Part shown: positions 14,232 through 31,121 of the stretch, one piece after another
How positions within the stretch are numbered: the stretch's first letter is position 1
How the letters are laid out: every line of letters begins with the position of its first letter
Source: a virus
IMG/VR virus record: IMGVR_UViG_3300037189_022604
Coordinates: 1-32,352 of that record
DNA length: 32,352 nucleotides
Strand: one strand, 5' to 3'
Translations under genes and position numbers: made by a program
The notes under the pieces: model-generated
Seen by the model: the letters and a program-made list of their open reading frames with translations, nothing else
Told to the model about the DNA's origin: nothing
Databases searched by the model: none

Positions 14232-14280
14232 AAGTCACACTAATAACTTACCACTGATCACTAACCACTTATCACTATCC
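14232..14280 (+). repeat. A/C/T-only intergenic repeat
   Basis: Imperfect tandem units of the ACTAAnnACTTATCACT kind, nearly free of G on the plus strand. Lies between the secreted-protein stop and the lysis leader. Confidence 0.6.
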
Positions 14281-14282
14281 CA

Positions 14283-14855
14283 TCATCGGACAATCATCCA
14301 CGCCTGCCAGCTCACCCGGCACTGGTTCACCGCGTCCTGCACATCTACCACCAGCTTGTAATTGGTAAACGGGTTTCCTATACCGCTGGCGGGCTCCCAA
14401 GTAAACACTTGAGCCGTACCTACCGTGCTGGCCATGTTTGTGGTTTGCCTCAGTTTATGTGGGGCCTGTCTAATGGGGTTCGTGCTGCTCCAAAATTGCA
14501 CCGCCACGCTGTCACAGTTTGTGCCGCTATCTATACTGGCCTGCACCTGAAAACTCACGGAGTGATAATAGCCATACAGAGAGCACCACGCACTGTCGTT
14601 GGCCGTTGCAGCATTCCTTACCGTATCCAACGCGGTATAAAAAGAGGGAAACTTCGCGACCGCTACTTCTCCCTGCGCGCCCACAGAGCTGGCGTAGCGG
14701 TGCACCAGAGTGTCACTCGCTTGGCTGTTAATCGTTCCCGCCATCAGCACGGTAGGTGCCTGAACCTCGGTGGTGTTCGTTCGGGTCTGCGTCTGCGCCA
14801 TCGCGGCCGCGGTCATCAGTAGGGCGGCAATTAACACCGCAAAAAAATGTCTCAT
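14283..14855 (-). CDS. Secreted protein of unknown function in the head cluster
   Basis: A 190-aa protein with a clear Sec signal peptide (MRHFFAVLIAALLMTAAAMA, cleavage after AMA-Q). The mature part is beta-rich, with two cysteine-containing segments (SAWCSLYGYY and SGTNCDSVAVQFW), a third cysteine near the C-terminus (NQCRVSWQAW), and a Gly/Thr-rich middle. A signal peptide is out of place beside capsid genes, because virion parts assemble in the cytoplasm. It may be a lysogenic-conversion gene, or an exported factor acting before lysis. No family recognised. Confidence 0.55.
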   Translation of the reverse strand: MRHFFAVLIAALLMTAAAMAQTQTRTNTTEVQAPTVLMAGTINSQASDTLVHRYASSVGAQGEVAVAKFPSFYTALDTVRNAATANDSAWCSLYGYYHSVSFQVQASIDSGTNCDSVAVQFWSSTNPIRQAPHKLRQTTNMASTVGTAQVFTWEPASGIGNPFTNYKLVVDVQDAVNQCRVSWQAWMIVR

Positions 14856-14879
14856 AAAATAGTAATGGTTTTTGCCTGC

Positions 14880-14911
14880 TAAAGCCGCCCCAGTAACGGG
14901 AGCGGCTTTTA
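14880..14911 (-). terminator. Palindromic terminator after the capsid gene
   Basis: AAAGCCGC (14881-14888) pairs with GCGGCTTT (14902-14909), extended by CCC/GGG; the loop is small. The stem ends in T-rich sequence on both strands (TTTT on plus, TTT on minus), so it could end leftward transcription after the capsid gene. Medium strength on the minus strand. Confidence 0.55.
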
Positions 14912-14942
14912 TAACTAATCACTTATAACTTATCACTTACAA
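14912..14942 (+). repeat. A/C/T-only intergenic repeat
   Basis: TAACTAATCACTTATAACTT-type units directly 3' of the capsid stop codon. Same polarity (no G on plus) as all other copies in the window. Confidence 0.6.
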
Positions 14943-15866
14943 CTACGCCTGCGCGCCTCCCGGTGCCTGCACAATGGCCACCACACCTTTCTGGTCGTCC
15001 CTGCGTTTCCTAGCGCCCATACGTACCAGGAAGCTATAGACGTCACCGTAATAGGTCGGGTCGTCTGTCCGGGCAAAGAATTTAATCTCGCCAATCGCAC
15101 GCACCACCTTATCCTTGTGCCAGAACAGGGCCGCGTCGTTATCGGTGGCATTCACAACCGCGTCAACCGCGTTCACCACTGGGGTGCCGCTGTTGTCGTA
15201 GGTCACCACCTGCGGGCGCTGGAATATTGTGAAGCCATACAGCATACCCAGCACACCGGTTTTCGGGTCCGCCATAGCCGAGAAGTCGCGGTAATCGGTA
15301 GCGCCTAGCTGTTCAAGTAGCTGGAAGTACATGTCCGCGCTTAAAAGAGCGTAGCGGTCGTTCATGGGTATATTTTGCTTGTTCAGCGCCAGCTGCGCAC
15401 GCTTAACGTCCGCCACGGTCAGCACCTTGCGGTTACCCGTTGTGCCGTCTAGGTGACTGGCAGTGTCCGGTCCGCTGGTCCTTAATATGCTGGCTGCAGC
15501 ACTGGGCGCCCATGCATAGATGGCATTATTGGCCACTTTTTCACGCAGCTGGCTCTGGTGCTCGCTGAGCACGCTTTCGCGCTTGTTATAGCTCAGCTCC
15601 ACCGTGTCCGCATTTGGTATCAGTATCGGGTCACTGGTGTATTCGTCGAGCGAATAAGTAATGTCAGTATCCGTCCTGGTACCTACACTCGCAGGCAGGA
15701 TGTTACGGTTTTTCACCACATTGGCCTTGGCTCCGGCCTGCGGTATATGCACCACCTTGCCTTGCAGCACATACTGGCTATCGTCGGTCGCGGCCAGCAG
15801 AAAGTTATTGTTCTGAAACAGGTTCTCCTCTATGTGGCTCTGCCAGATTTCCCTTTGTATTCCCAT
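14943..15866 (-). CDS. Major capsid protein
   Basis: A 307-aa protein downstream of the protease/scaffold gene, as expected for the head module. The sequence has the HK97-fold pattern: an N-arm, an extended-loop region (ADTVELSYNKRESVLSEHQS), a spine-helix stretch (LTVADVKRAQLALNKQNIPM), and the P-domain/A-domain strands (GMLYGFTIFQRPQVVTYD). The Mu-type capsid gpT is about this size. High expression is expected. No other major virion protein candidate is present. Confidence 0.75.
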   Translation of the reverse strand: MGIQREIWQSHIEENLFQNNNFLLAATDDSQYVLQGKVVHIPQAGAKANVVKNRNILPASVGTRTDTDITYSLDEYTSDPILIPNADTVELSYNKRESVLSEHQSQLREKVANNAIYAWAPSAAASILRTSGPDTASHLDGTTGNRKVLTVADVKRAQLALNKQNIPMNDRYALLSADMYFQLLEQLGATDYRDFSAMADPKTGVLGMLYGFTIFQRPQVVTYDNSGTPVVNAVDAVVNATDNDAALFWHKDKVVRAIGEIKFFARTDDPTYYGDVYSFLVRMGARKRRDDQKGVVAIVQAPGGAQA

Positions 15867-15925
15867 TTGAATGGATTTTGTTGTTATTAATACGGGTGAG
15901 TAAATACTATCGGCCGCGGCCGCTA

Positions 15926-16411
15926 CTACTTTTTCGCAAACTTTTCGTCAAACTTTCGGGCATATGCCTCAGGGTGCTCATCCCTCAACCTTTTCAGCAG
16001 GCCAGCCCTGTCCAGCTCGTCCCAGCTCTTATCGGCAAGCTCCTTAGGCAGGTCATCCCCGTTCGGCTTCAGTTTCGATACAATTGGGCTGTACACAGGC
16101 ATCGTGTTCACCAAGTCGGCCAGCTCCGTGGGCATGCTGGCAAATTGCTTGCCCAGCCTCTCAGCGGTGGCCTTGGTTACTCGGCCTTCTTCAAGCGCCT
16201 TTTCCAGCACGTCGGCCACCTGCCGCGCGCAATCGGCCGCTTTCAAATCGGCCAGCTCTTGCACCAGCGTGGCTTTAGCAGCGTTGGCCTGCTCTGCCTC
16301 AGTCTTTAGGTTTTTAATGCCCGCGATTATTGCATCCGGGGTAACCTCAATATCAGTCAGGCTCAGCAGCTCAAGCAGCGGGGCGTTAATCGGCAGTGTT
16401 ACTGTCTTCAT
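15926..16411 (-). CDS. Nested scaffold protein inside the protease gene
   Basis: An in-frame internal ATG at 16411 (residue 167 of the 327-codon frame opened by the TTG at 16909) would yield 161 aa starting MKTVTLPINAPLLELLSLTD, a coiled, Ala/Glu/Lys-rich protein. The protease domain ends just before it, and Mu makes gpZ scaffold in just this way from an internal start in gene I. Upstream on the minus strand is an AT-rich leader (ACATAAATATTCAACGA), typical of Bacteroidota starts. Function: assembly core of the prohead, removed by the protease. Confidence 0.6.
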   Translation of the reverse strand: MKTVTLPINAPLLELLSLTDIEVTPDAIIAGIKNLKTEAEQANAAKATLVQELADLKAADCARQVADVLEKALEEGRVTKATAERLGKQFASMPTELADLVNTMPVYSPIVSKLKPNGDDLPKELADKSWDELDRAGLLKRLRDEHPEAYARKFDEKFAKK

Positions 16412-16882
16412 TCGTTGAATATTTATGTTGGTAAAATCCGCAAGTGTTATCCCCGTACCGTCGGCAAGCTCCAGCTCCTCCTCGCCCATGGCCTCCCTGT
16501 TGCCTGGGTTATCTACAATGCTGCACTCTTTAAAGGCCCAGCGCGGCACCACCACAGCGTCGCCCATAATTACCGGCTCAGCTAAAAATTTCAGGCTACC
16601 CACACTGGCCCCATTCATAAAGCCACCCTCTATCTCTTCAACCGCACGCTCGCCCTTAGGGTGGGCTAGGTTAATAACGGGATAGCCAGTAATGGAGTCG
16701 CCCTCAATAGCCACATCCTCCCATCGTACTAGCACGCCGTCTTCACGATCGTGCATGTAGTAACCTATCGGGTTAGCCAGAAACACAGATAGATCACACC
16801 CTTCAGTGGGTAGCACGAAACCGTACTCGTTCACCGCCCCGGTGCTCAGTGTAAACTTTCTGTCTATCCGCTTTTCGCTCAT
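15926..16882 (-). CDS. Prohead protease with C-terminal scaffold (Mu gpI-like)
   Basis: A 318-aa protein. Residues about 10-130 match prohead proteases: FVLPTEGCDLSVFLANPIGY, the GASVGSLKF motif (catalytic Ser in G-x-S) and KECSIVDNPGNREA. The C-terminal half is a helical scaffold region. ATG 16882 is preferred over a TTG 27 nt upstream. The gene starts the leftward head transcript and divides from the terminase module across a 296-bp region with a 22-bp repeat and a 24-bp palindrome. Confidence 0.75.
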   Translation of the reverse strand: MSEKRIDRKFTLSTGAVNEYGFVLPTEGCDLSVFLANPIGYYMHDREDGVLVRWEDVAIEGDSITGYPVINLAHPKGERAVEEIEGGFMNGASVGSLKFLAEPVIMGDAVVVPRWAFKECSIVDNPGNREAMGEEELELADGTGITLADFTNINIQRMKTVTLPINAPLLELLSLTDIEVTPDAIIAGIKNLKTEAEQANAAKATLVQELADLKAADCARQVADVLEKALEEGRVTKATAERLGKQFASMPTELADLVNTMPVYSPIVSKLKPNGDDLPKELADKSWDELDRAGLLKRLRDEHPEAYARKFDEKFAKK

Positions 16883-16909
16883 GTGCCCGTTTCGTTTAAT
16901 CCCTTTCAA

Positions 16910-16970
16910 CTCAAGTACTTTCTACTTTCGGCTCAAGTACTCTCTACTTTCGACTCAAGTACTTTCTACC
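16910..16970. repeat. 22-bp tandem repeat, 2.8 copies
   Basis: CTCAAGTACTTTCTACTTTC plus two bases is repeated at 16910-16931, 16932-16953 (one T to C change) and 16954-16970 (partial). A period of 22 bp is close to two helical turns, which would place repeated protein sites on one face. It sits in the divergent region between the two head transcripts. Confidence 0.7.
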
Positions 16971-17173
16971 GAAAAAGGGTGCCCCTTTGTTTGAGAATTC
17001 AAAGGTCGCGCCTCGCCCGCGCGCGGAAAAATCATGTATTTGCCGCCGCCTGCCCGCTGCCTATCATAGTCTACGGCCCGCCATCCGCGCGGTTTAGCAC
17101 ATTTTTCGCACCACTGCCGGCCGACCTTTGTAGCGCACCCGCCCCCAACTAGTTGGGGGCGGTTAAAAACCAT
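16955..17173 (-). CDS. Possible small Cys-containing protein in the divergent region
   Basis: An open frame of 72 codons from ATG 17173 reads MVFNRPQLVGGGCATKVGRQ, then WCEKCAKPRGWRAVDYDRQR, then GKYMIFPRAGEARPL. The CEKC pair and basic middle resemble a small zinc-binding protein. Against it: it covers the palindrome and ends inside the 22-bp repeat, and would fill the only space available for divergent promoters. Listed as possible only. Confidence 0.25.
   Translation of the reverse strand: MVFNRPQLVGGGCATKVGRQWCEKCAKPRGWRAVDYDRQRAGGGKYMIFPRAGEARPLNSQTKGHPFSVEST
17139..17162. promoter_or_regulatory. 24-bp perfect palindrome in the divergent head promoter region
   Basis: CCGCCCCCAACT followed by AGTTGGGGGCGG, symmetrical over 24 bp with no spacer, ending 16 bp before the small-terminase ATG. 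It has no T-tract on either side, so an operator for an activator or repressor of late genes is more likely than a terminator. In Mu, late promoters need the C or Mor activator, which binds dyad sites. Confidence 0.55.
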
Positions 17174-17178
17174 TGTAT

Positions 17179-17658
17179 ATGCCTGAAGAAACAAACACAA
17201 ATAGCGAGCTATCCGCCTCCCAAAAGCGCGAGTGGGCCATGCAACTTTACCTCCGCGACGACCTCACCCAAAAGCAAATCGCCGCCACCGTCGGGGTGTC
17301 GGAGAACACCATGAGCAAATGGGTCATAGAGGGTATGTGGGAGGGGCGTCGCAAAACTTTGCTCACTACCAGGGAGGAAATCATACGCGACCTGTACGAG
17401 GGCCTGTCGCGCCTAAACAAGGCCAATAAGGAGTCGCTGGAGGACGACGATCCCGAAACCGAGCCCAACTACGACGCCGTGTCCAAAATGACGCGAGCCA
17501 TCAAAAACCTCGAACGAGAAACCGGCATTGGGGATATGATTCACACCGCCCGCGCCCTTATAGACTTTGTCCGCACCGAAGATACCGAGGCCGCAAAAGT
17601 CATCAACAAATGGGCCGACTTGTTCATCAAAGACAAAATCAAGTCCGCCAAACTCTAA
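17179..17658 (+). CDS. Small terminase subunit
   Basis: A 159-aa protein. It has an N-terminal helix-turn-helix (LTQKQIAATVGVSENTMSKWV) that would bind the packaging site, followed by helical oligomerisation segments (EEIIRDLYEGLSRLNKANKE). It stands directly upstream of the large terminase gene, as usual. ATG 17179 is chosen; a TTG 6 nt upstream is possible. The protein directs headful packaging of host-flanked DNA in Mu-type phages. Confidence 0.75.
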   Translation: MPEETNTNSELSASQKREWAMQLYLRDDLTQKQIAATVGVSENTMSKWVIEGMWEGRRKTLLTTREEIIRDLYEGLSRLNKANKESLEDDDPETEPNYDAVSKMTRAIKNLERETGIGDMIHTARALIDFVRTEDTEAAKVINKWADLFIKDKIKSAKL

Positions 17659-17776
17659 CGACTATCCACTCTCGACTATCTACTCTCTACTTTCTACTAA
17701 CGACTCTCTACCCTCTACCAACGACTATCTACTATCTACTCTCTACTTTCTACTATCTACTAACAACCATCTACCA
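17659..17776 (+). repeat. CTATCTACT-type repeat upstream of large terminase
   Basis: 118 bp composed almost wholly of CTATCTACT, CTCTCTACTT and TACTAACGACT units, nearly without G on the plus strand, directly preceding the large-terminase ATG. A translated reading in frame with TerL gives a Ser/Thr/Tyr-rich prefix that I reject. Confidence 0.75.
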
Positions 17777-19312
17777 ATGCAACGCGACCTTCGCCTCCTC
17801 AAACAATGGCAGGAATACACCAAAGAGATTGAAAGCTCCACCCCGGTCAACCTCAACGAGTCGGCGCTGGAGAAACGCAAGCGCATGGAGGCCCTCGAGG
17901 CCGACCCTGAAAGATGGTTTAACTATTACTTTCCGGCCTTCGCCTACGCCAAGCCACAGCCCTTCCATATGGCGGCCACACTCCGCATAGTCGCCAACCC
18001 CGAGTGGTACGAGGTACGTGCCTGGTCACGGGAACTCGCCAAGACCACACGCACCATGTTCGAGGTGTTCTACCTGTCTTTTGTCGGTCACCCAACCGCC
18101 GAAGGCACACGGCACCGTAAGCGCAACATTATTTTAACCAGCAACAGCGAAGACAACGCCGAGCGCCTGTTGCTACCGTACAAGACACACATGGAAAAAA
18201 ACCAGCGCCTGATATACGACTACGGCGAGCTGGTAGATATTGGTAACTGGGAGGCGGCGGAGTTTGTTACCAAGAACGGCATCGCCTTTCGCGGCATCGG
18301 CGCTGGCCAGTCTCCGCGCGGCTCCCGAAATCAGGAAATACGCCCGGATATCCTTCTCATTGACGACCTCGATACAGACCAGGACTGCCGCAATCCCGAA
18401 ATCATCAATAAACGCTGGAAGTGGATAGAGGAAGCCCTCATGCCGACGCGCTCCATCTCCAAGACCACCACGGTCATCTTCTGCGGCAACATCATCGCTA
18501 AAGATTGCTGCATCGTCCGCGCCATTAAAGTGGCCGACCACTCCGATATCATCAACATACGCATGCCCGATGAAAACGGGGTGCTGCGCTCCTCATGGCC
18601 GGATAAGAACTGCGAGGAGGATATCGATCGGGTATTGTCAAAGATCAGCTACAGCTCCGCGCAAAAGGAGTACTTCAACAATCCCATCACCGAAGGCGTT
18701 ATATTCAAGCAGCTCCAGTGGGGAGAGATACGCCCGCTCAACGAATACAAGATGCTCGTGTGCTACACCGATCCGTCATATAAAGAGTCGGGCGACTTCA
18801 AGAGCACCGTGCTGGTCGGCGCTTGGGACGACCAGTTCCACATCATTAAGGCCCGCTGCGCTCAAACCACGGTGTCCAACATGGTCGACTGGCACTACGA
18901 GATAATGGACTTAGTCGGCGACAATCCCTGTTACTACTACATGGAGGAGGTGTTCCTTCAGGATATGTTCTACAACGACTTCAACGCGGAGGCCATTACC
19001 CGCGGCCGCTCCGTCCCTATCTGCGGCGACCCCCGCAATAAGCCTAACAAGTTTATGCGTATCGAGGGCCTCCTCGACCCGCTCAACCGCCGCGGCAAGC
19101 TTCTGTTTAACGCTGCCGAAAAGAACGACCCCGGCATGCAGGCATTACAAGACCAGTTCCTCGCGTTCGGTCCCGGCTCTTCCGCTCACGACGATGGCCC
19201 CGACTCCGTTGAAGGCGCTATTTGGATACTCAATACCAAGATGGCCGCCATTTCCTCCGGCCTTATCGAAATCATCCGCCGCCGCCCCAACGCCTCGCCC
19301 AACCACTTTTAA
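17777..19312 (+). CDS. Large terminase subunit (Mu gp28-like)
   Basis: A 511-aa protein with the two domains of packaging motors. ATPase: Walker-A-like SRELAKTT (84-91), then a Walker B DILLIDDLD (191-199). Nuclease: YTDPSYKESGD with Asp332 at the start of the RNase H-like domain, followed by later acidic residues (YYYMEEVFLQDMFYND). It uses ATP to move DNA into the prohead and cuts it. The true start is ATG 17777; the longer open frame upstream lies in repeat sequence. Confidence 0.85.
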   Translation: MQRDLRLLKQWQEYTKEIESSTPVNLNESALEKRKRMEALEADPERWFNYYFPAFAYAKPQPFHMAATLRIVANPEWYEVRAWSRELAKTTRTMFEVFYLSFVGHPTAEGTRHRKRNIILTSNSEDNAERLLLPYKTHMEKNQRLIYDYGELVDIGNWEAAEFVTKNGIAFRGIGAGQSPRGSRNQEIRPDILLIDDLDTDQDCRNPEIINKRWKWIEEALMPTRSISKTTTVIFCGNIIAKDCCIVRAIKVADHSDIINIRMPDENGVLRSSWPDKNCEEDIDRVLSKISYSSAQKEYFNNPITEGVIFKQLQWGEIRPLNEYKMLVCYTDPSYKESGDFKSTVLVGAWDDQFHIIKARCAQTTVSNMVDWHYEIMDLVGDNPCYYYMEEVFLQDMFYNDFNAEAITRGRSVPICGDPRNKPNKFMRIEGLLDPLNRRGKLLFNAAEKNDPGMQALQDQFLAFGPGSSAHDDGPDSVEGAIWILNTKMAAISSGLIEIIRRRPNASPNHF

Positions 19313-19398
19313 CTATGTACTATCTGCCAACGACTATCTACCCTCTACTATCTACTAACATACCCTCTACTAATCACTAACCACTAACAACTAAAAAA
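19313..19398 (+). repeat. A/C/T-only intergenic repeat
   Basis: Mixed CTATCTACT-type and ACTAACCACTAACAACT-type units fill the gap up to the ATG of the gp36-like gene. The two repeat types follow one another in the same orientation. Confidence 0.7.
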
Positions 19399-19830
19399 AT
19401 GGCCTACCTCGTTACTTCCGACCTCTACACGGTCATCTACGAAAACATAATTACCGAAATAACACGCAACGACGATACCATTGTACCCGTCGCCATTGAG
19501 GGCGCAATCAGCGAGGCCCGCGGCTACCTTTCGCGATACGACACTGTGCAGCTCTTTGGCGATAGCGAAACCGCCCCCACCGTGGCCGATGCCTGGCTGA
19601 AGAACATGGTCAAGGATATTGCCGCTTGGCAGGTCATCAAGCTGGCCAACCCCGATATCAACTACCAGCACATCCGCTCGTGCTACGAAGACGCAATCGC
19701 CACACTCACTAAAGTGTCGTCCGGAAAGCTCCTGCCTAACTGGCCACTTTATGTGCCACCCACCACCACGCCCGACCCCGGCGCAGCCGTCCAGTGGTCC
19801 TCAAACCGAAAGCTCACTAACGATATTTAA
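19399..19830 (+). CDS. Mu gp36-like head-tail protein (DUF1320 type)
   Basis: A 143-aa protein matching the small Mu gp36 group: YLVTSDLYTVIYENIITEIT near the start, the ISEARGYLSRYDTVQLF motif, a helix AWLKNMVKDIAAWQVIKLAN and the Pro-rich tail PLYVPPTTTPDPG. This family links head and tail. Unlike in Mu, it lies between terminase and portal genes rather than after the capsid gene. Confidence 0.75.
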   Translation: MAYLVTSDLYTVIYENIITEITRNDDTIVPVAIEGAISEARGYLSRYDTVQLFGDSETAPTVADAWLKNMVKDIAAWQVIKLANPDINYQHIRSCYEDAIATLTKVSSGKLLPNWPLYVPPTTTPDPGAAVQWSSNRKLTNDI

Positions 19831-19852
19831 CCCACGTTAAAACCTGTTTAAA

Positions 19853-21232
19853 ATGGAAGAATTAAAGCCAACAATCGACCAGCAACCCAACCTCACCATA
19901 TCCAAGGACGCCCCCATTACGGGCGGCGAAACCAAGGTAGTGATCAACGAGCTGGTCGTCCGCCAGAATATTCGATCGAAGTACGATATCGCCAGCTTCA
20001 CCGCCGCTATCAACTCTGCCGAATCGCGCTACAACCCGCGCCGCATTCAGCTCTACGATATGTACCAGCACGCCTTGCTCGACGGGCACCTGTTCGGAAT
20101 CGTGGAGAAGCGCATCAACAGCGTGCTGAACAAATCGTTGGTGTACAAAAACAAACAGGGCGAGGCCGTCGAGGCCATGACGGAAGTCATTAAGAGCTAC
20201 GAGTTCCGCCAGATCATGCGGCTGATACTGGAGTCCATCCCGTGGGGTATATCCGGTATTGAGTTCATACCCGGCAAAGAGCTGCAACTTCGGGCTATCC
20301 CCCGCAAGCACATTAAGACAAAAACGCAGCTCATTACCGTCGAACAGATGGATCAGGACTACGGTATAGACTACACGAAGCTCGACAACGTCTGGATCAT
20401 CGGTGAGCCGGAGGACCTTGGTATCCTGCTCCCGGCATCGATGTACGTCATCTACAAGCGCAACGCCCTGTCCGACTTCGCGAACTTTATACAAATATTC
20501 GGCATCCCTATCCGGGTGGCTAAGTACGAGGTCAACGATAAAACAACGCAAACGGCTCTGAAAGACGCGCTGGATAACAGCGGCAGCGCACTGGCCTTAA
20601 TGATACCGAAGCAGGCCGAGTTCTCCATCGAAGATGGCAAGACCTCCAACGCCAACGGCGACTTGCAAACCCAGTTCATCGATAAAATGGACCAGTTCCT
20701 CAGCGTGATTATACTGGGTAACACGGAAACCACGACCAACGGCAAAACAGGCTCACAAGCCAAGAGCAAGGTGCACCAGGAGCAGCAAAACGAGCTCCTC
20801 AAGTCCGATATGGCCCTGCTGCAGGCCTACCTCAACGACCCGCATTTCATTCGCATATTGCAGTCCTACGCGCTTCCTGTCGAGGACGGCGGGCAGTTTG
20901 AGTTCAATAAGGACGTCGATATTAACTTCCTCTCCGCGCGGGCGGAAGTAGATAAAACGCTCATAGAATGCGGGGTGCCAATCGGGGTCGAGTACTTTTA
21001 CGAGACCTACAACATTCCAAAACCGGAGCCGGGCGAGCTAATCGTAGGCACCGCCGCACAGGCCACCAAGCACCTGAAAGCGGAGGAACAACAGGAAGCG
21101 ACCAACGGCCAGCAGGAGACCGACCAGCAGGAGCAGGAAGAGCAGGACGGCCCCAATCTTGTCGACAACGCGCTCGAGGCAGTCACCGATCGCCTGATGC
21201 AGCGCCTCAAGGATGCAGGTTTTTTCGCGTAA
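19853..21232 (+). CDS. Portal protein (Mu gp29-like, DUF935 type)
   Basis: A 459-aa protein of the Mu portal family. Features: an N-terminal clip/stem part (YDMYQHALLDGHLFGIVEKR), central FANFIQIFGIPIRVAKYE, then SVIILGNTETTTNGKTGSQA and the long acidic Gln/Glu-rich C-terminus. It forms the dodecameric ring at one capsid vertex. The gene ends in a -1 frameshift signal, see the separate entry. A fused 760-aa form with the MuF-like protein is therefore predicted alongside the normal one. Confidence 0.8.
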   Translation: MEELKPTIDQQPNLTISKDAPITGGETKVVINELVVRQNIRSKYDIASFTAAINSAESRYNPRRIQLYDMYQHALLDGHLFGIVEKRINSVLNKSLVYKNKQGEAVEAMTEVIKSYEFRQIMRLILESIPWGISGIEFIPGKELQLRAIPRKHIKTKTQLITVEQMDQDYGIDYTKLDNVWIIGEPEDLGILLPASMYVIYKRNALSDFANFIQIFGIPIRVAKYEVNDKTTQTALKDALDNSGSALALMIPKQAEFSIEDGKTSNANGDLQTQFIDKMDQFLSVIILGNTETTTNGKTGSQAKSKVHQEQQNELLKSDMALLQAYLNDPHFIRILQSYALPVEDGGQFEFNKDVDINFLSARAEVDKTLIECGVPIGVEYFYETYNIPKPEPGELIVGTAAQATKHLKAEEQQEATNGQQETDQQEQEEQDGPNLVDNALEAVTDRLMQRLKDAGFFA

Positions 21233-21251
21233 GCCCGGCAAAAGTCCGGGC
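21220..21251 (+). promoter_or_regulatory. Predicted -1 programmed frameshift signal at the portal stop
   Basis: In the portal frame the codons GGT TTT TTC GCG TAA contain T TTT TTC (21220-21226), a canonical X XXY YYZ slippery heptamer. Six nt later a 6-bp GC stem, GCCCGG (21233-21238) with CCGGGC (21246-21251) and a 7-nt loop, would stall the ribosome. Slippage by -1 bypasses the TAA (21230-21232) and continues in the MuF frame with CGC GTA AGC. All three elements are in the spacing seen in known bacterial and viral examples. Confidence 0.75.
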
Positions 21252-22134
21252 CGCAGTAGAAAAACTGTATAGCACCACCTGCCCCCAATGCGGCGGCCAT
21301 ACGCCTGCGCTACCTACCGCGCTGGCCGACGACACCCCGCAGGAGCCGCCCCCCGAGCAGCTCCGCCTAATGCGCTTAGTATTTCGCAATCGCATTGACG
21401 AAAGCGGTATCGATCCGGAAACGGTTAAGGAAACTGCCGATACATTCATGAAGGCCGTTACCGAGGGCTACGGCGAGCAACAGGGCACACCACTTACACC
21501 GGGCGACTGGTCAACAATCGTCGACTACAACACGCCCAACTACGCCATGCTGGCCAACATTGAGCGCAATGTCTACCAGTTTGCGGGCGCCCGTAATTAC
21601 CAACAGCTCCGCGACCTTACCTCAGCGCTTACCGATGGCCTGCGCCGTCGTTCATTCCGGGAGTTCAAGGCCGAGGCGCAGCGCATACTCAATACTTACG
21701 ATTTGCGCTACCTGCCCGCCGAGTACAACACGGCCCAGTCCGCCGCCTATAACGCCGCCTCTTGGGCCGACTACCTCACGTCCGCTGCCGGGAAAGGAGA
21801 AGGTGCCGTATTGTTGGAGTACGTTACCGCTGGCGATGATCATGTTCGCGCAGCGCACCGCCTCCTCGATGGCGTCGTACGCCCCATGAACGATGCCTTT
21901 TGGAACACCCACTTCCCGCCCCTCGACTGGAACTGCCGTTGCACCACCCACCGGGTGCGGAATAAGGAAGTAACGCTGCAGCCACCTGATGTAACTATAC
22001 CGCGTTTGTTTCGCACTAACTTGGCCGAAAACGGCCTCGTATTCCCTCCGGAGCACCCCTACTTCATTACCGCCCCAAGCAGCGCCAAAACCGCCGCAGA
22101 GGCCCTAATACCAACGCGCCCAACTAACAACTAA
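21226..22134 (+). CDS. MuF-like head morphogenesis protein (gp30 type), -1 extension of portal
   Basis: From the shift point the frame adds 302 residues. It carries the MuF signature, H..LDG in AAHRLLDGVVRP, then PPLDWNCRCTTHRV, near residues 230-260, plus an N-terminal CPQCGGH possible zinc site. No ATG, GTG or TTG occurs in this frame from 20971 to 21369, and the first later ATG (21370) would remove about 48 residues. An ATG at 20968 would need 265 nt of overlap with the portal and an unlikely Arg/Gly-rich prefix. MuF proteins are minor head components, so a low-rate fusion to portal makes sense. Confidence 0.7.
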   Translation, partial: RVSPAKVRAAVEKLYSTTCPQCGGHTPALPTALADDTPQEPPPEQLRLMRLVFRNRIDESGIDPETVKETADTFMKAVTEGYGEQQGTPLTPGDWSTIVDYNTPNYAMLANIERNVYQFAGARNYQQLRDLTSALTDGLRRRSFREFKAEAQRILNTYDLRYLPAEYNTAQSAAYNAASWADYLTSAAGKGEGAVLLEYVTAGDDHVRAAHRLLDGVVRPMNDAFWNTHFPPLDWNCRCTTHRVRNKEVTLQPPDVTIPRLFRTNLAENGLVFPPEHPYFITAPSSAKTAAEALIPTRPTNN

Positions 22135-22167
22135 TCACTAACAACTTACCTCTAACAACTAACAACT
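22120..22167 (+). repeat. ACTAACAACT-type repeat, including the MuF stop
   Basis: CTAACAACTAATCACTAACA-type units cover the last codons and stop of the MuF frame (ending in PTNN) and run up to the next ATG. No G occurs from about 22120 to the ATG. Confidence 0.65.
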
Positions 22168-22713
22168 ATGGACAGCCGTAACCTCGATCCGTTCCTCAAC
22201 AACATGGCCACGGCCATAAAGGCCGCCACGCCACGCATTGTGCACGAGATGGGCTCCGAAGCCGTCACGTATAGTAAGGAGAACTTTCGACGCCAGGCAT
22301 TCGACGGAAAACCTTGGCCCAAACGAAAAAAGGATAGGACACCGGGCCGGGCTGTCCTGATCAAGACCGGCCACCTGCGCAATAGCATACACATTACCAA
22401 CCAGTCCGCCGGCTCGGTCAGTATAGGCACCGACCTGCCATATGCTCAGATACACAACGACGGCGGAGTCATCCAGCACAGGGGGCGCGAAGTAGTGCTG
22501 AACTTCCGGAGAAAGGGTGGCAAGCTACTGTTGTCCAAGGTGCAGACAGAAAGCCAGCAGCGACTCATTACCGATATCCGTCGGGGCAATACGGGCGACT
22601 ATACCACCAGTATGCCACAGCGCCAGTTCCTCGGCATGACCACCGAGCTCCGCGACAAAATCATCGCCAACATCCGGCAGGAAATCACCTCCACCTTCCG
22701 CATCGTCCGCTAA
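22168..22713 (+). CDS. Virion morphogenesis protein (Mu gpG/gp31-like)
   Basis: A 181-aa protein of the phage virion morphogenesis family. Seen are an N-terminal helical part, GKPWPKRKKDRTPGR, then LIKTGHLRNSIHI, then the VSIGTDLPYAQIHNDGG core and RQFLGMTTELRDKI. The IKTGHLRNSI and YAQIHN motifs are diagnostic. It takes part in head-tail completion. It follows the MuF gene, as in Mu. Confidence 0.8.
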   Translation: MDSRNLDPFLNNMATAIKAATPRIVHEMGSEAVTYSKENFRRQAFDGKPWPKRKKDRTPGRAVLIKTGHLRNSIHITNQSAGSVSIGTDLPYAQIHNDGGVIQHRGREVVLNFRRKGGKLLLSKVQTESQQRLITDIRRGNTGDYTTSMPQRQFLGMTTELRDKIIANIRQEITSTFRIVR

Positions 22714-22814
22714 AATCTATCTACTATCTACTAACGACTATCTACTAACGACTCTCTACTATCTACTTTCGACTTTCTACTAACAACTAACCACTAACAA
22801 CTAACCACTAAAAA
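22714..22814 (+). repeat. A/C/T-only repeat, both unit types in series
   Basis: About 100 bp: CTATCTACT units followed by ACTAACAACTAACCACTAA units, leading to ATG 22815. The order (CTATCTACT type first, ACTAAC type nearer the ATG) is the same as at 19313-19398. Confidence 0.75.
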
Positions 22815-23369
22815 ATGAACTCCCCAATCGCCAACCTCTTCCTCGCACTTCAGGCCCGCATCGCTGGCCTGCACGACAACGACGGCAACAACTACTTCCG
22901 GTATGTAGATCAGGATACCGGGCAGCTGGAGATGCTGAAAAATGGCCGCTATCCGGTAAGCTGGCCCTGCGTGCTGATAGACGTAGATAAGATCGACTTC
23001 ACCGACGATGGCACGAGGATTCAAAGCGGCACGGGCACCGTAAGCCTGCGCATGGGCTTCCCGCCATACAGCGCCAGCAGCAACATTACACCGTCCGAGT
23101 ATCGCACCAAGGCGCTATACTACTACGACTTGGAGCAGGTGCTCTACCTGGCACTACAGCACTGGAACCCAAGCCAGCAGGAAGGCTTTGAGGCATTAGC
23201 CGATATCTTTGGTAGTTTCCGCCGCGCCAGTAGCGTCACCGAGCCGCGCGAGGACTTTGTCCGTGTCCGGCAGATAAGCTACACCATCGCGCTCGACGAT
23301 TACTCCGCCAAAAAACAGCAGCTCTTTGCCCCCGCCGCCCTCGACCTCAACATTGGAATCAATGCATAA
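22815..23369 (+). CDS. Putative neck/tail-completion protein (gp37 position)
   Basis: A 184-aa protein at the end of the plus-strand head module. It has a central strand pattern (VSWPCVLIDVDKIDFTDDGT, then GTGTVSLRMGFPPY) and a long C-terminal helix-strand (DDYSAKKQQLFAPAALDLN). Size and order after gpG suggest a DUF1834-like Mu gp37 relative that completes the tail or connects it to the head. Not certain from sequence. Its stop lies in the A-tract of the opposing terminator. Confidence 0.5.
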   Translation: MNSPIANLFLALQARIAGLHDNDGNNYFRYVDQDTGQLEMLKNGRYPVSWPCVLIDVDKIDFTDDGTRIQSGTGTVSLRMGFPPYSASSNITPSEYRTKALYYYDLEQVLYLALQHWNPSQQEGFEALADIFGSFRRASSVTEPREDFVRVRQISYTIALDDYSAKKQQLFAPAALDLNIGINA

Positions 23370-23394: not shown

Positions 23395-23426
23395 CTTCGC
23401 CTGATTCCCCTAATTATAGGGCAAAG

Positions 23427-23636: not shown

Positions 23637-23638
23637 AT

Positions 23639-24316
23639 CTATTGATTTTCGTGGTTAAACAATGCTAACTGTTGGGCGTCGTATTCCTTTTGCTTTGCCT
23701 TTATTGGCTCGAAAAGCGACTTAATCGCTTTTCGTTGCAGCAAAATCAAAACGTAACGCTCTTCGGCGAACACAAACCCATCCACTTGCATAAAAGCCGT
23801 TGTCCAGCGCTTCGATGGCTTGTACTCACTGCCGCTTCGTTGTGTTTTACCTCGTAACAATTGTAGAACATGTGCATAACGATAGTAAACTATACCGTCA
23901 ACATCTATGCGGTCGATACCCGCTAAACCTTGGCAGTAGGCGCCATACTTCCGAATGCTCGGCAATACATCCATGGTTACCCACTTTTGGAACGCTTTCG
24001 CCTCTTCTTTTCGGCTTTGGAAAATCAGAGTGTACAACCCTGACTCATTTACAAAATGGCTTTCCCTACCCTGACCTGAGGTATATACTGTATACCTCAG
24101 CCTCTGATAATCTTCCAAGCTTTTAACAGCCATTTTGTTGTTTTGGATACCCAGTGCATCACATACGTCTTTAGCCAGAAACCAAGGCTCCCCGGCTATC
24201 ATTTCTACCTGAATGCTTTGGTCGGAAAAGAAAAAGGATAGTTCGTTTCCTGAACTACTGGTCATCGGGCCGCTACTATTATTCGCGATCTTTTGATGGT
24301 GCTGTTTGTTTGGCAT
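23639..24316 (-). CDS. Bro-N domain antirepressor-like protein
   Basis: A 225-aa protein. Residues about 27-130 carry the Bro-N pattern: WFLAKDVCDALGIQNNKMAV, then HFVNESGLYTLIFQSRKEEA and FQKWVTMDVLPSIRKYGAY. This is shared by phage antirepressors. The C-terminal 90 residues are basic and of unknown fold (EYKPSKRWTTAFMQVDGFVF). It likely binds DNA or a repressor to control the lytic choice. Its start codon lies in a 15-bp inverted repeat. Confidence 0.75.
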   Translation of the reverse strand: MPNKQHHQKIANNSSGPMTSSSGNELSFFFSDQSIQVEMIAGEPWFLAKDVCDALGIQNNKMAVKSLEDYQRLRYTVYTSGQGRESHFVNESGLYTLIFQSRKEEAKAFQKWVTMDVLPSIRKYGAYCQGLAGIDRIDVDGIVYYRYAHVLQLLRGKTQRSGSEYKPSKRWTTAFMQVDGFVFAEERYVLILLQRKAIKSLFEPIKAKQKEYDAQQLALFNHENQ

Positions 24317-24420: not shown

Positions 24421-24490
24421 CTTAATCTTGAAAAAAATACTGAACGGGAACTCATGAACTATTTGTTTGGCTCCCCAAATGTATGATTAT

Positions 24491-25381: not shown

Positions 25382-25448
25382 GGTTAAACGTTTTTTGCAA
25401 AAAAAGTTAATATTAATCATCCCCGCAACGGGGAAAACACCCTTTTAT

Positions 25449-25775: not shown

Positions 25776-25788
25776 GGCTAAAACTGGT

Positions 25789-26190: not shown

Positions 26191-26211
26191 ACCAGGTACT
26201 TTCTCCTTATT

Positions 26212-26281
26212 ACTTTTTACTCTCTACTATCTACTATCTACCATCTACTCTCTACTCTCTACCCTCTACTTTAGACTCTAA
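26212..26281 (+). repeat. CTATCTACT-type intergenic repeat in the early region
   Basis: About 70 bp of CTACTATCTACTATCTACCA-type units, without G on plus, between the gemA-like start and the stop of the next gene upstream. Here both flanking genes are minus, yet the repeat polarity is unchanged. Confidence 0.75.
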
Positions 26282-26286
26282 ACCCC

Positions 26287-26739
26287 CTACGCCTGATACC
26301 AATTCGTCTCGTACATCGCCTTCTTGATATACGTTTCTGGGTCGGCCTTGCTTTTCCACGTATTGTGGCTCAAGTGCCACAAGTAGCCCTTCAATCGGCC
26401 CACCACTGCCGCCCGCTTCACATACGATAGGTTCTCCCATGCCTTCAACGCTCGCTGCCGGTTCACTGGCTTACCATACGGCACATAAAAGTCCGCGTCA
26501 AAGTCCAGCTCCTTTTTTTCAATAAGCACTTTAATTCGGTCGGTCTCCCATGCAGCCGCATAGTGCTGCACCAGACGGGTGGGAGCCTTGCACTTTAGCC
26601 ATTGTTTGCCGCGGTCGTCCAGCAGGGCCTCGCTAAAGTCTATACTGATCAGTGGCGCATCATCGCCACCTTCCGGCTCTCCATACACCAGCTTCACAGT
26701 GCCCTCAAAGCCGTCCGAAGTGATATATACATTTTTCAT
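26287..26739 (-). CDS. Hypothetical early protein
   Basis: A 150-aa protein that starts MKNVYITSDGFEGTVKLVYG. It has an N-terminal beta part (APLISIDFSEALLDDRGKQW), a basic C-terminal half with RLKGYLWHLSHNTWKSKADP and a final ETNWYQA. ATG 26739 is one base after the upstream stop (TAGCATG), so I prefer it over the longer ORF. Family not recognised. Confidence 0.55.
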   Translation of the reverse strand: MKNVYITSDGFEGTVKLVYGEPEGGDDAPLISIDFSEALLDDRGKQWLKCKAPTRLVQHYAAAWETDRIKVLIEKKELDFDADFYVPYGKPVNRQRALKAWENLSYVKRAAVVGRLKGYLWHLSHNTWKSKADPETYIKKAMYETNWYQA

Positions 26740-26740
26740 G

Positions 26741-27076
26741 CTAAAAAAGTGTTGTTTGCTGCAGCGGGTATCCCAACCCCGCCACCTTACCCAATGCGTT
26801 ATTATCCTCATACAGCCGCTGCCGGGCTACACCATGGTTGTGGATTGCCTGCTCTACCTCCGCTAGCTCCGCTTCCATGCTGGTAATTTCCACCGCCAGT
26901 ATATGCATAGCGCTCATAATATAATCCCTATTCCCGGCCATGCTTTCTGTCAGCCAATAGGCGTCCTTGTGTCTGCTCAGCGTCAAGTGCTGGCTCGCCT
27001 TCTCGGCAATCTTGCCCCGCAGCTCTTCCAGCCGGCACGAGTAATTTGCCAGCTCCCGCTTACTCAGTAGCGCCAT
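26741..27076 (-). CDS. Hypothetical coiled-coil early protein
   Basis: A 111-aa, largely helical protein: ANYSCRLEELRGKIAEKASQ and HILAVEITSMEAELAEVEQA, with heptad-like spacing. It has no DNA-binding motif visible. It starts at ATG 27076, two bases downstream of the ASCH-like stop, and is followed by a tightly spaced gene. Confidence 0.5.
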   Translation of the reverse strand: MALLSKRELANYSCRLEELRGKIAEKASQHLTLSRHKDAYWLTESMAGNRDYIMSAMHILAVEITSMEAELAEVEQAIHNHGVARQRLYEDNNALGKVAGLGYPLQQTTLF

Positions 27077-27078
27077 AA

Positions 27079-27790: not shown

Positions 27791-27821
27791 TTTACATATT
27801 GCGTACCGCGCCCGGTTGATT

Positions 27822-27858
27822 TACAACTAACAACTAACCACTTACAACTAACAACTAA
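27822..27858 (+). repeat. ACTAACAACT-type repeat
   Basis: CAACTAACAACTAACCACTT and the following units form 37 bp without G on the plus strand. It includes the stop codon of the Cys-rich 36-aa ORF. Confidence 0.7.
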
Positions 27859-27965
27859 ACGCTTACCGCGTCCACCGCGCCGCAAGTATCACAGATGAAC
27901 ACTCCGCAATACCCCTTCATAACGCACGGACCCGAACACACTGGCGCTGTCATATCCCCAACCAT
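27855..27965 (-). CDS. Short Cys-rich protein (zinc-ribbon-like)
   Basis: A 36-codon frame on the minus strand from ATG 27965 (or 27953) encodes VCSGPCVMKGYC, then CDTCGAVDAVSV. The CxxxC and CxxC pairs look like a zinc ribbon. It fills a 230-bp gap otherwise empty apart from repeat and hairpin. Similar tiny zinc proteins occur in early phage regions (Mu Com is a zinc protein), but there is no direct similarity I can claim. Confidence 0.45.
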   Translation of the reverse strand: MVGDMTAPVCSGPCVMKGYCGVFICDTCGAVDAVSV

Positions 27966-27984
27966 TTGAGTATCCGCCGCCAGA

Positions 27985-28007
27985 GCGGAGGGCGGTTTGC
28001 CCTCCGC
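27985..28007 (-). other. 9-bp hairpin between early genes
   Basis: GCGGAGGGC pairs perfectly with GCCCTCCGC across a 5-nt loop. There is no T-tract. It lies between the 89-aa gene stop and the Cys-rich start, so may be an attenuator or an mRNA-stability element. Confidence 0.5.
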
Positions 28008-28022
28008 AGGTCGGCCGCAGTT

Positions 28023-28292
28023 TCATATACTGTCAGCAGCAACAGCCGCTTTGCCTGTTTTCGGTTCATGAGTGTGAATGAGTATGGTTCGTGGGTGTTC
28101 GCAAAGGCGGCTAATGCGGGCATTCATTTCCGCCTTTACGCGGAAGGTCTCTAAATCGCTCCACTGGGTATCTCCGGCCCGCATGGCCTTTATCTTGTAT
28201 ACCACTGTATTATTGCCAGCCCACCGTTCCGCAGTCCGCAGAAGGGTATAGCCATCGGCCAGCAGCTTCGCCTGGTCTCGCTTATTAAGCAC
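28023..28292 (-). CDS. Hypothetical early protein
   Basis: An 89-aa protein starting MLNKRDQAKLLADGYTLLRT, with TVVYKIKAMRAGDTQWSDLE in the middle and a C-terminus EPKTGKAAVAADSI. Overlaps the Gam start by 8 nt, so translation is likely coupled. No family recognised. Confidence 0.5.
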   Translation of the reverse strand: MLNKRDQAKLLADGYTLLRTAERWAGNNTVVYKIKAMRAGDTQWSDLETFRVKAEMNARISRLCEHPRTILIHTHEPKTGKAAVAADSI

Positions 28293-28809
28293 TGGCCACC
28301 TCCTCTTTTTTCAGCTCAATAAAGAAGTGCTCATCCTGCACCACGCGGAGGCCACAGTTCGCCAGCTCTTGGGCCACCATTTCCTCGTCGCGGCTCAGCA
28401 GCAGCAGCTCCTTGTTAACCTCGGTCTTAGTCCGCACAAATTCAGGGAGCACATGGGCGACCATGCTCAGCACTTTTTCCCACGTCCATTTCGGTAGCGT
28501 CTTTAACGCCGGTGTGCCCATCCTAAAACCAACTGTGCCATGCTCCGTTGCCCAGCTGCGTTTAGTAGCAAATATTTCGGCCTTGTGTTCGGTACAGTAG
28601 GTTTGTATCACTTCCTGAGCAGCATCTTTCTGCTCCGCCAGCGCCGCCAGAGTGTCGGCATACTTATCGCGCACCTTGGTTATTTCAAGGTCCATTTTCG
28701 CCGCCTTGGCCGCTATGCTGGCGTCCGCCGTAGCATAGTCGTGCATAGCCTGGTTAAACTGCTCCAGTGTTACACCCGTAACCACTTTTTTACTCTCTCT
28801 TTTCGCCAT
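28285..28809 (-). CDS. gam: Host-nuclease inhibitor Gam family
   Basis: A 174-aa protein matching Mu Gam. It has a long N-terminal coiled coil (KMDLEITKVRDKYADTLAAL then AEQKDAAQEVIQTYC), the central HGTVGFRMGTPALKTLPKWT motif and the tail FVRTKTEVNKELLL. Mu Gam dimers bind DNA ends and block RecBCD-type exonucleases, protecting incoming linear DNA. Location in the early operon agrees. Confidence 0.75.
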   Translation of the reverse strand: MAKRESKKVVTGVTLEQFNQAMHDYATADASIAAKAAKMDLEITKVRDKYADTLAALAEQKDAAQEVIQTYCTEHKAEIFATKRSWATEHGTVGFRMGTPALKTLPKWTWEKVLSMVAHVLPEFVRTKTEVNKELLLLSRDEEMVAQELANCGLRVVQDEHFFIELKKEEVASA

Positions 28810-28823
28810 TGTATGGTTTAGTT

Positions 28824-29153
28824 TTAGTTTAATAATCTCCGTTTTGCATTCTTATCAATGCTCCCTACTATATCGTTGATCAGTAGGTTAGTATAGGGGT
28901 CGTGCTCCGCGGTTACCTGTGCCCAAATCTGCACAAAGGCCAGCGCTTCATGTGGCCACAAGCTCAGCTTGCACTTCCAGTTGGTCCGTGAAGCATTTTC
29001 AAACCAGTCCACAAGGAACACGAGAAACTCACGTAGTAGCTGGTCGTGCTCGCCTTCCACGTCGAAGTTGGCCAGCAGCCATTTATGCAGCACCAGCAGC
29101 GCTTGTATCTGGTCTGGTGTGAGTAGCTTTTGGAAACATTGCCTTTTGTTCAC
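28824..29153 (-). CDS. Hypothetical early protein (GTG start)
   Basis: A 109-aa helical protein starting at GTG 29153 (MNKRQCFQKLLTPDQIQALL) inside the DnaA-like gene's end, overlapping by 71 nt. The middle is hydrophobic with HKWLLANFDVEGEHDQLLRE and EFLVFLVDWFENASRTN. No transmembrane run is strong enough. Unknown function; no ATG is available in the frame, so the GTG start is inferred. Confidence 0.45.
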   Translation of the reverse strand: MNKRQCFQKLLTPDQIQALLVLHKWLLANFDVEGEHDQLLREFLVFLVDWFENASRTNWKCKLSLWPHEALAFVQIWAQVTAEHDPYTNLLINDIVGSIDKNAKRRLLN

Positions 29154-29382
29154 CTGATTGCATTTTTAACTCGTTAACCAATTGGTCTACCCGCATTCTC
29201 CACTCCGGGTAAACACTCATGTAATCCCGCACCTGCTTTATGTGGTGCAATACCGTTGTGTGGTCCATACCACCCATCAACCTGCCCAGGTACTTTGCGG
29301 AAACCGTCGGGTAAACCTCGCGCATGCAATAGATTACGGCCCTCCGCACATCCACATACTCACGCTTACGCGTCCGCGCCAT
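29083..29382 (-). CDS. DnaA C-terminal domain-like DNA-binding protein
   Basis: A 99-aa protein. Residues about 10-55 match the DnaA DNA-binding domain: RRAVIYCMREVYPTVSAKYL, then the DnaA signature helix in MGGMDHTTVLHHIKQVRDYM (the M.HTTVLHH box). It lacks the ATPase part. It may bind DnaA boxes to steer host replication, or serve as a regulator. ATG 29382 is preferred to a GTG upstream. Confidence 0.75.
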   Translation of the reverse strand: MARTRKREYVDVRRAVIYCMREVYPTVSAKYLGRLMGGMDHTTVLHHIKQVRDYMSVYPEWRMRVDQLVNELKMQSGEQKAMFPKATHTRPDTSAAGAA

Positions 29383-29461
29383 CACAACGCCCTCGGGCAC
29401 ATTTTGGCGCGATATCAGAAAGGCAATCGCAATCCATGCCGCAACTACAACAGCTGTGCAT
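29366..29461 (-). CDS. Very short Cys-rich protein
   Basis: From ATG 29461, one base after the stop of the 108-aa gene (TAAGATG), 31 codons encode MHSCCSCGMDCDCLSDIAPK then CARGRCDGADA, with eight Cys. Overlaps the DnaA-like start by 17 nt. The tight coupling on both sides supports a real gene; the Cys pattern suggests metal binding. It could also be chance. Confidence 0.4.
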   Translation of the reverse strand: MHSCCSCGMDCDCLSDIAPKCARGRCDGADA

Positions 29462-29462
29462 C

Positions 29463-29789
29463 TTACTCGTAGGTTAATGTGTGAAGACTGGTGATATCAC
29501 CTATTGCGCGGTACGCCTCACGAAACTGTCGCGCCAGTTGCACTTGCTTTTCGAGCACATACGTGTGGCTAAGCGGGCCATGCTCGCGCCAGTGCTTGAT
29601 AAATTCATTTAGCGAGGCGAGCAGCTCTCGCACCTCGCAATACTCCTCACTATCAGCGGGCTGTAGCGTAACTACCTTAGCTATTAACCGCGTTATTGCT
29701 TCCGCCTCGGATTTGTAGTAACCATCCAGCACCGTACAGGCGCTGAATTCCACTAAGGTAATCATTCGTGTGAATACGTTCATAAACAT
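29463..29789 (-). CDS. Hypothetical early protein
   Basis: A 108-aa helical protein (ACTVLDGYYKSEAEAITRLI, and VLEKQVQLARQFREAYRAIG). No family. Start at ATG 29789 is uncertain: alternatives are at 29783 and a little further. It lies 2 bp from the 31-aa ORF. Confidence 0.5.
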   Translation of the reverse strand: MFMNVFTRMITLVEFSACTVLDGYYKSEAEAITRLIAKVVTLQPADSEEYCEVRELLASLNEFIKHWREHGPLSHTYVLEKQVQLARQFREAYRAIGDITSLHTLTYE

Positions 29790-29839
29790 GAATTTAATTG
29801 GTTTTAAAAATCAGTTCCACCCCCTCGGGGCACTTATCA

Positions 29840-29893
29840 CTAACCACTTACAACTAACAGTTTCAAAAATTACCAGCGGTAGAAACCGCCAGT
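29840..29893 (-). other. A/C/T repeat plus hairpin after the RadA-like gene
   Basis: CACTAACCACTTACAACTAA-type repeat (about 29840-29862) precedes, on plus, a hairpin GCGGT/ACCGC (29876-29889). On the minus strand the hairpin is followed by TGGTAATTTTTG, so it might be a weak terminator of the RadA-like gene. Confidence 0.4.
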
Positions 29894-29925
29894 CTTGTAA
29901 CGATCAACTGTTACTATTGTGGCTC

Positions 29926-30582
29926 TTATTGCATCAGCGCCTTATAGCGCCGCTTCCAGTATCTCTTGGCGCCCTCCTCCCATATCACATAGGGCTTATT
30001 GCCGCCTTCCCGGCTCTTTACAAAGGCAATCCCACCTTCCACCCGCACTTTGTAGTCAACATCGTACTCTATGTCTATCGCCAGCTTACCGCTGGGCTTC
30101 TTGCCCTTCGCATGGCTAATGAATATGAAGCCTTTCTTAGGGAACCGCTCCTTTAGCGCCTGGTACTGCTGGTAGGTAATGCGCCAGTACTGTATGCTAT
30201 CTATAACCACGAAATCGGCGCTCTTCTTCTTAGCCAGGTGCCTCACCAAGTGGTCGTAGCTCATGCGGTGATCGTAGAACTTTATTCGCCCGGTATGCTT
30301 CTCCTCATTCAGCGCCTCCATAACTTTCCGCTGGGTGCTGCTGCGGTATCCCTCCTCCAGTGCTACGTAGTCCACCTTACCGTGGTCGAGCAAGAAGTTG
30401 ATCAGCTCCATCAGCAAGGTGCTCTTACCGCTACCGCTCTCCCCATACACTATCATCAGGATACTGCGGGTAAACCTTCCAAAACTGGACCGCATACGCT
30501 CCGGCAGTGGCTCTAAATAGTCGAACTTCATAGCGAGGAGCTGCTTTAAACCCATGCCCCTCGGGGCTTTCACTTCACTCAT
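29926..30582 (-). CDS. RecA/RadA-like ATPase
   Basis: A 218-aa protein with RecA-fold NTPase motifs: Walker A GESGSGKST (47-55), Walker B FVVIDSIQYW (123-132), and a downstream KKGFIFISHAKGKKPSGK, typical of KaiC/RadA-like cores. There is no zinc finger or Lon-like domain. It may remodel or load replication/repair proteins, alongside the DnaA-like protein. The start at ATG 30582 is 6 nt downstream of the preceding stop. Confidence 0.7.
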   Translation of the reverse strand: MSEVKAPRGMGLKQLLAMKFDYLEPLPERMRSSFGRFTRSILMIVYGESGSGKSTLLMELINFLLDHGKVDYVALEEGYRSSTQRKVMEALNEEKHTGRIKFYDHRMSYDHLVRHLAKKKSADFVVIDSIQYWRITYQQYQALKERFPKKGFIFISHAKGKKPSGKLAIDIEYDVDYKVRVEGGIAFVKSREGGNKPYVIWEEGAKRYWKRRYKALMQ

Positions 30583-30588
30583 GCGCCG

Positions 30589-31080
30589 CTATGCTCCTTT
30601 GTTTATTGATGGCACTAGGTCGCGGGCATAGCTCGCCTCCAGTACAGCTCCGTTAGGGGTAATGGCTTTCGCTAGGGTATAAGGGCAGTGCAGCTGCGCA
30701 TACGCATCATTAATCATGCGCTTGTTGGCACCCGCCGTATATCCCTGCAGCCCGTTGGCATGCACTATTTCGCGCGGGGCAAAGGCAGCATCCGCCTCGG
30801 CAATAAAGTCCTCATCGCGCTCCGCCCATTGGTTCTTCCACCAGCCCCAGAATGCCCGGCTCGCCTCCATCTGCCTGTAGTCGTAGCTGGCCTCTATTTC
30901 GGCACTGGTGATATTATCTCCGGCTACATCCTTCAGTATGTTTATCAGGTAGCGCAGCCCACACTGGTACTTAAACCAGCAGTACTCCTCTTCAGTGGCA
31001 CCAGTCAGCTCTACAACGCGCTTCATCAGCTCCGCATGGCTATACCTTACCCGGGCAACATGGCTAATTTTCCTTGTCAT
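30589..31080 (-). CDS. Hypothetical early protein
   Basis: A 163-aa protein, helical, with SHAELMKRVVELTGATEEEY and a Trp-rich SRAFWGWWKNQWAERDEDFI stretch. No domain recognised. It lies between MuB and the RadA-like gene. Start ATG 31080. Confidence 0.5.
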   Translation of the reverse strand: MTRKISHVARVRYSHAELMKRVVELTGATEEEYCWFKYQCGLRYLINILKDVAGDNITSAEIEASYDYRQMEASRAFWGWWKNQWAERDEDFIAEADAAFAPREIVHANGLQGYTAGANKRMINDAYAQLHCPYTLAKAITPNGAVLEASYARDLVPSINKGA

Positions 31081-31100
31081 ATATGTGCTCTTTGTTTTTT

Positions 31101-31121
31101 ACAACTAATCACTACCCACTA
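31101..31121 (+). repeat. Short ACTAATCACT-type repeat
   Basis: A G-free stretch CAACTAATCACTACCCACTA just upstream of the MuB stop complement, in the same orientation as the other copies. Confidence 0.5.

Follow-up and report, generated by a model that had tools for sequence, protein, structure and literature searches.

One-sided heptad arrays at gene borders of a Mu-like Bacteroidota phage and their association with the C-rich strand

The window analysed here is a whole virus record of 32,352 bp (IMGVR_UViG_3300037189_022604, positions 1 to 32,352). By its gene content it is a Mu-like transposable phage of Bacteroidota: homologues of Mu portal, F and G and of MuB are all present, with domain matches to Portal_Mu (2e-63), Phage_Mu_F (1.5e-17) and Phage_tail_S (1e-14; a Mu-type virion morphogenesis protein). 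Other genes encode TerL, a tail sheath, a tape measure, a baseplate hub and a MuB-like transposition ATPase (31119..32060, minus strand; phrog_296, E=1.8e-30). The latter marks the transposase (Mu-left) end, and the record stops just past it, with a last reading frame of 75 aa. The first 17 kb carry minus genes, the stretch from 17.2 to 23.4 kb plus genes, and the remainder minus genes again. The plus-strand portion is a head block (17179..23369) of TerS, TerL, a gp, Mu portal, Mu F, Mu G and a further gp, and it contains four of the arrays described below.

The portal is about 30% identical to those of Bacteroides hankyphage records, and replicative transposition has been demonstrated for hankyphage (PMC12135933). 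The likeness to hankyphage and other Bacteroidota Mu-like transposable phages (PMC12135933) lies in the Mu-type portal and the MuB-like ATPase; heptad arrays are carried by the window and a minority of its relatives. Two further gene groups are noted in passing. Formyltransferase-like, GNAT-like and ABC-ATPase-like genes follow one another at 482-2254 (minus), the last two matching phrog_11143, and may form an accessory cassette, for DNA modification or otherwise. A BRO-N domain gene (23639-24316, minus) sits at the strand switch, right after the plus-strand head block.

Eleven gaps between 14.2 and 31.1 kb hold repeats; in ten these are tandem heptads of the form ACT(A/T/C)(A/T/C)C(N), and all are on the plus strand. 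The eleven stretches add up to 678 bases, 17 of them G and 216 C, and bear out the description of single-polarity, nearly G-less repeats given by a sequence-only reading of this DNA. The unit CTATCTACT occurs 10:0 on plus versus minus (0.18 expected by shuffling) and ACTAACAACT 8:0 (0.03 expected). Adjacent heptad pairs stand at 67:4 and three-unit pattern matches at 9:0. TRF finds periods of 14, 21 and 28 besides 7, which suggests duplication of blocks of units. The same reading had stated that CTATC-type units come first where both types occur together; this is true of both mixed arrays scored for the window, and in host genomes it is suggestive (23/34, p=0.058, after removal of arrays picked by an ordered pattern).

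All eleven sites are intergenic; where one reaches into a coding end, it covers no more than a few codons. Six are at stops of minus genes, and arrays so placed often provide the stop codon. The array at 14238..14279 comes within 3 bp of minus gene 14283-14855, to the left of its stop, and that at 14909..14945 runs into the major capsid gene (minus, 14943-15866; phrog_267) at its stop codon. Further right, minus gene 26287-26811 has the array 26197..26273 to the left of its stop, 27819..27860 overlaps the stop of a 36-aa cysteine-rich minus ORF (27855-27965), and 29831..29859 is upstream, in plus coordinates, of the stop of a minus ATPase gene (29926-30582). The short array at 31095..31121, a G-free run with a heptad pair at 31111, reaches over the stop of the gene for the MuB-like ATPase. 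Four arrays precede ATGs of plus genes: 17655..17776 fills the TerS/TerL gap up to the TerL ATG (17777); 19312..19398 takes up all the space from TerL to gene 19399-19830; 22121..22167 lies at the junction of the Mu-F-like and Mu-G-like (22168) genes and holds the last codons and stop of the former; and 22714..22814 fills the gap preceding gene 22815-23369. The remaining site, 16903..16969, is a heptad-related 22-bp repeat in three copies with 6 G, situated in the divergent gap between the protease (minus) and TerS (plus) genes. The placement originally described, before plus ATGs and after minus stops, thus holds for ten sites and fails for this one, which is nearer the start of the minus protease gene (likely ATG near 16883). 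As side effects, the arrays give four head genes G-less unstructured leaders and place stop codons in many frames.

Several familiar explanations were set aside. The plus strand of the arrays is unfolded (MFE 0 in most, no fold in 10 of 11), which speaks against a hairpin or terminator role, and the minus strand folds weakly; a known structured RNA is likewise disfavoured, Rfam families giving no match to the window arrays. Pure base composition is an unlikely cause, since shuffles yield almost no such units and the roughly balanced palindrome of a sibling phage (L033, below) is equally one-sided. As tandem 7-bp units beyond chance that are mainly intergenic, the arrays resemble heptanucleotide tandem repeats of the LSSR/STRR type. 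They have neither the palindromic stem nor the fixed ends of REP or IS200-IS605-type elements, and their length varies.

For comparison we took 80 phage relatives by TerL similarity, without regard to arrays (L482-L561). Gene order is kept among them, as is gene orientation (capsid minus in 57/57, sheath minus in 32/32), and the MuB-like gene is right of TerL on the minus strand in all six relatives that show both genes. TerS abuts or overlaps TerL, with a median gap of -1 bp (n=70) against 118 bp of array in the window; from TerL to the next gene the median gap is 3 bp (n=55), against 86 bp of array in the window. Because these junctions nearly touch in relatives, the arrays are best regarded as additions at places that work without them. 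We confine this argument to the two junctions because others, such as Mu F to Mu G, are of varying length in relatives. Heptad arrays occur in only two of the 80, as three arrays, all with the polarity of the window. Three array-bearing prophages (L276, L332, L338), the first of them from Flavipsychrobacter stenotrophus, also share that polarity. Consistent orientation in related phages, a check proposed by the sequence-only reading, was therefore mostly found; the exceptions are three phage contigs with opposite polarity relative to TerL (L006, L014, L146) and one that is mixed (L136).

The sibling phage L033 (IMGVR_UViG_3300023179_000445, 19.6 kb) has a portal 59% identical to that of the window. 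Its TerS/TerL and TerL/next-gene gaps hold 121 and 118 bp of other repeats, unrelated to the heptads yet one-sided: GTCATTGCG at 32:0, GAAGCAACC at 29:0, GTTCAGAC at 18:0 and ATAGCCAATCA at 12:0. Many copies of GTTCAGAC end a few bases from a start or stop on their right. Skew in L033 is strong, at -0.46 for one gene direction and -0.38 for the other. The contig is crowded with one-sided composite repeats of the form AATCATAGCCAATCATTT - CGTCATTGCGAG..GAAGCAACCT - AATCACAGTTCAGAC, some of which sit in the portal and Mu-F-like reading frames and leave them unbroken.

The same heptads are found in chromosomes of Chitinophagales, Bacteroidales, Flavobacteria and heterocystous cyanobacteria (Nostocales). 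In the Flavipsychrobacter family 79 of 294 genomes have heptad matches. Two bins (G006 and G007) show the unit mix of the window (ACTATCT, ACTAACG, ACTAACA, ACTTTCT), and since the mix is the same the host of the window is likely of their kind. An equal density throughout the host, unrelated to the phage, would have spoken against a link to this element. Arrays are indeed present in host-type genomes, where they are sparser, at about 2-6 per Mb versus 8 strict arrays in the 32 kb of the window; selection of this window on account of its repeats biases the contrast upward.

Arrays in host loci meet a gene border with the 3' end of their ACT strand, which is the nearer side in 38/45 gaps of the '>|>' arrangement, 33/35 of the '<|<' arrangement and 14/14 convergent gaps. 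The border may be a start or a stop. Convergent gaps are the clean case because both of their borders are stop codons, which are immune to start-calling error; divergent gaps give only a trend (12/16).

A second regularity concerns the strand. GC skew is negative on the plus strand over the window (1-32352), while the sign of AT skew switches with gene direction; third-position GC skew is -0.27 in plus genes and -0.13 in minus genes, so the plus strand is C-rich throughout. In Chitinophagales chromosomes the ACT units are on the C-rich strand for 45/56 arrays (p=5e-6), using third-position skew averaged over both gene directions, which corrects for gene direction. With one vote per locus the count is 39/50, and five genomes taken singly agree (8/10, 15/19, 10/12, 8/10 and 4/5). 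These figures supersede a first host test on raw 20-kb skew (54/76, p=3e-4), which was confounded by gene direction. Among the Mu-like Bacteroidota relatives the TerL strand is C-rich in 66/80 (p=8e-8), a negative skew that could help to infer replication direction in such phages. Viral contigs with arrays and a strand-wide skew above 0.2, a cut-off chosen afterwards, agree in 11/11; over all viral contigs with arrays, which were picked by pattern, polarity and skew are not significantly linked (rho -0.21, p=0.12). The link is absent in Bacteroides sp. 519 (11/25). These counts suggest that array polarity follows the C-rich strand and not transcription. The independence from transcription that had been noticed in the window, where one strand carries the units over genes of both directions, is thereby upheld.

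Leading strands are G-rich in most bacteria, and we use GC skew as a stand-in for replication direction in all these genomes. Mu replicates mainly from its left end. The explanation we favour, and consider on balance probable, is that these are arrays of host type grown by slippage at gene borders, with a polarity set by the direction of replication. Arrays of the kind seen in Bacteroidota chromosomes would have been added in phage gaps that are tight in most relatives, each starting at a gene border from a few bases resembling a heptad and probably growing by replication slippage or unequal exchange, in blocks of one to four units. The ACT-bearing strand, associated with C-richness in the counts above, would presumably be the lagging one. 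Phage copying probably starts at the transposase end, on the right in the window, and runs one way; a single polarity for all arrays in the window would follow. The MuB-like gene at the right thus predicts leftward forks and a C-rich lagging plus strand, and a C-rich plus strand is what is observed. Of three roles put forward by the sequence-only reading (module-joining linkers, replication-related, recombination sites) the second is accordingly the best supported, through the C-rich strand in chromosomes and window alike; its tie to the fork comes from GC skew and Mu biology. A more general statement would be that the direction of the replication fork determines which way round short intergenic repeats arise or persist, in Bacteroidota chromosomes as in transposable phages, with growth toward the next gene border and polarity as a record of replication direction. 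This wider form we advance tentatively, judging it to fall somewhat short of probable.

An effect at the level of mRNA is the most natural competitor. ACT arrays would serve as G-less leaders that aid translation starts lacking a Shine-Dalgarno site, and their reverse form after stops as a 3' UTR signal. Four arrays do end 0-6 bases ahead of plus-gene ATGs with the plus strand unfolded, many host arrays end near start codons, and an aid to translation without a Shine-Dalgarno site has already been proposed for TAACTGA repeats. We nevertheless think it unlikely, as 6 of the 11 window sites touch stops of minus genes, no minus gene has a reverse array before its start (the divergent 22-bp repeat excepted), arrays occur in convergent gaps with no start codon nearby, and polarity still tracks the C-rich strand once gene direction is corrected for. 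Slightly less likely again are small mobile elements, of the IS200/IS605 or REP-like kind, entering through single-stranded DNA at the fork with one polarity per replication direction. The absence of a palindrome, fixed ends or fixed length in the heptad arrays speaks against them; they fit the repeats of L033 better, and would account for the strand polarity of repeats with balanced composition such as GTCATTGCGAG..GAAGCAACCT in that phage (32:0).

The idea of linkers that join phage modules, or of recombination sites between them, was recommended by the position of the arrays at gene junctions. The arrays lie, however, inside the conserved TerS-TerL-gp-portal-F-G block, relatives with the same gene order have nearly touching genes with gaps of about 0 bp, and arrays so rare among relatives (2/80) are common in chromosomes. 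This disfavours the linker proposal, no observation here favours recombination sites, and we rate the whole class of explanation very improbable. Polarised motifs of chromosome organisation, KOPS- or Chi-like, with a G-rich strand required on the leading strand, would explain the strand polarity in Chitinophagales; arrays that are sparse, variable in unit sequence and confined to 79 of the 294 genomes of one family make this, if anything, the least credible reading. Slippage growth with a polarity set by replication remains our preferred account.

Cyanobacterial STRR are tandem heptamers in gene gaps, with a supposed origin in polymerase slippage. Heptanucleotide long simple sequence repeats are likewise described as tandem heptamers in bacterial gene gaps with slippage as the supposed origin (Mrazek 2007, as cited in PMC4679880). 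The texts considered here state no orientation rule for either kind, in contrast to the rule given above. TAACTGA heptamer arrays are known from gene gaps of Beggiatoaceae, Bacteroidetes and Cyanobacteria (MacGregor 2015, PMC4679880), and eight Microcystis sets lying between stop codons share one orientation, the genome-wide validity of which was left open (PMC4679880). The likeness to our arrays is close: 7-bp tandem intergenic units mixed with related heptamers, often ending a few bases from a start codon (PMC4679880). The unit differs, being TAACNAC/TATCTAC in the window, where TAACTGA has no occurrence. That work dealt with chromosomes and favoured translational control (PMC4679880); our additions are the link to the C-rich strand, a border rule that extends to stops, and a phage as carrier. 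What looks new is the two-part orientation rule; heptamer arrays in themselves have been described before. In the open-access literature we found no report of the strand rule, of the border rule for stops or of a transposable phage carrying a dense one-sided set, and these appear to be new; on Mu replication direction, and likewise on strand-polar repeats, the same literature held nothing decisive. Earlier reports of heptamer arrays came without an explanation of their location and orientation. The strand and gene-border rules are simple and can be checked in any closed genome, and if the strand rule is true, repeat polarity shows the replication direction of uncultivated transposable phages.

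Paired arrays form another pattern, and in Bacteroides sp. 519 they tell against the favoured explanation. In Bacteroides sp. 519, Tannerella and cyanobacteria they point outward, from a central core toward both genes. In Bacteroides sp. 519 (L282-L302) and at two other loci (L058, L084) opposed heptad array pairs surround a short core, often CCATGCGGCATCG, and form long potential intergenic hairpins.
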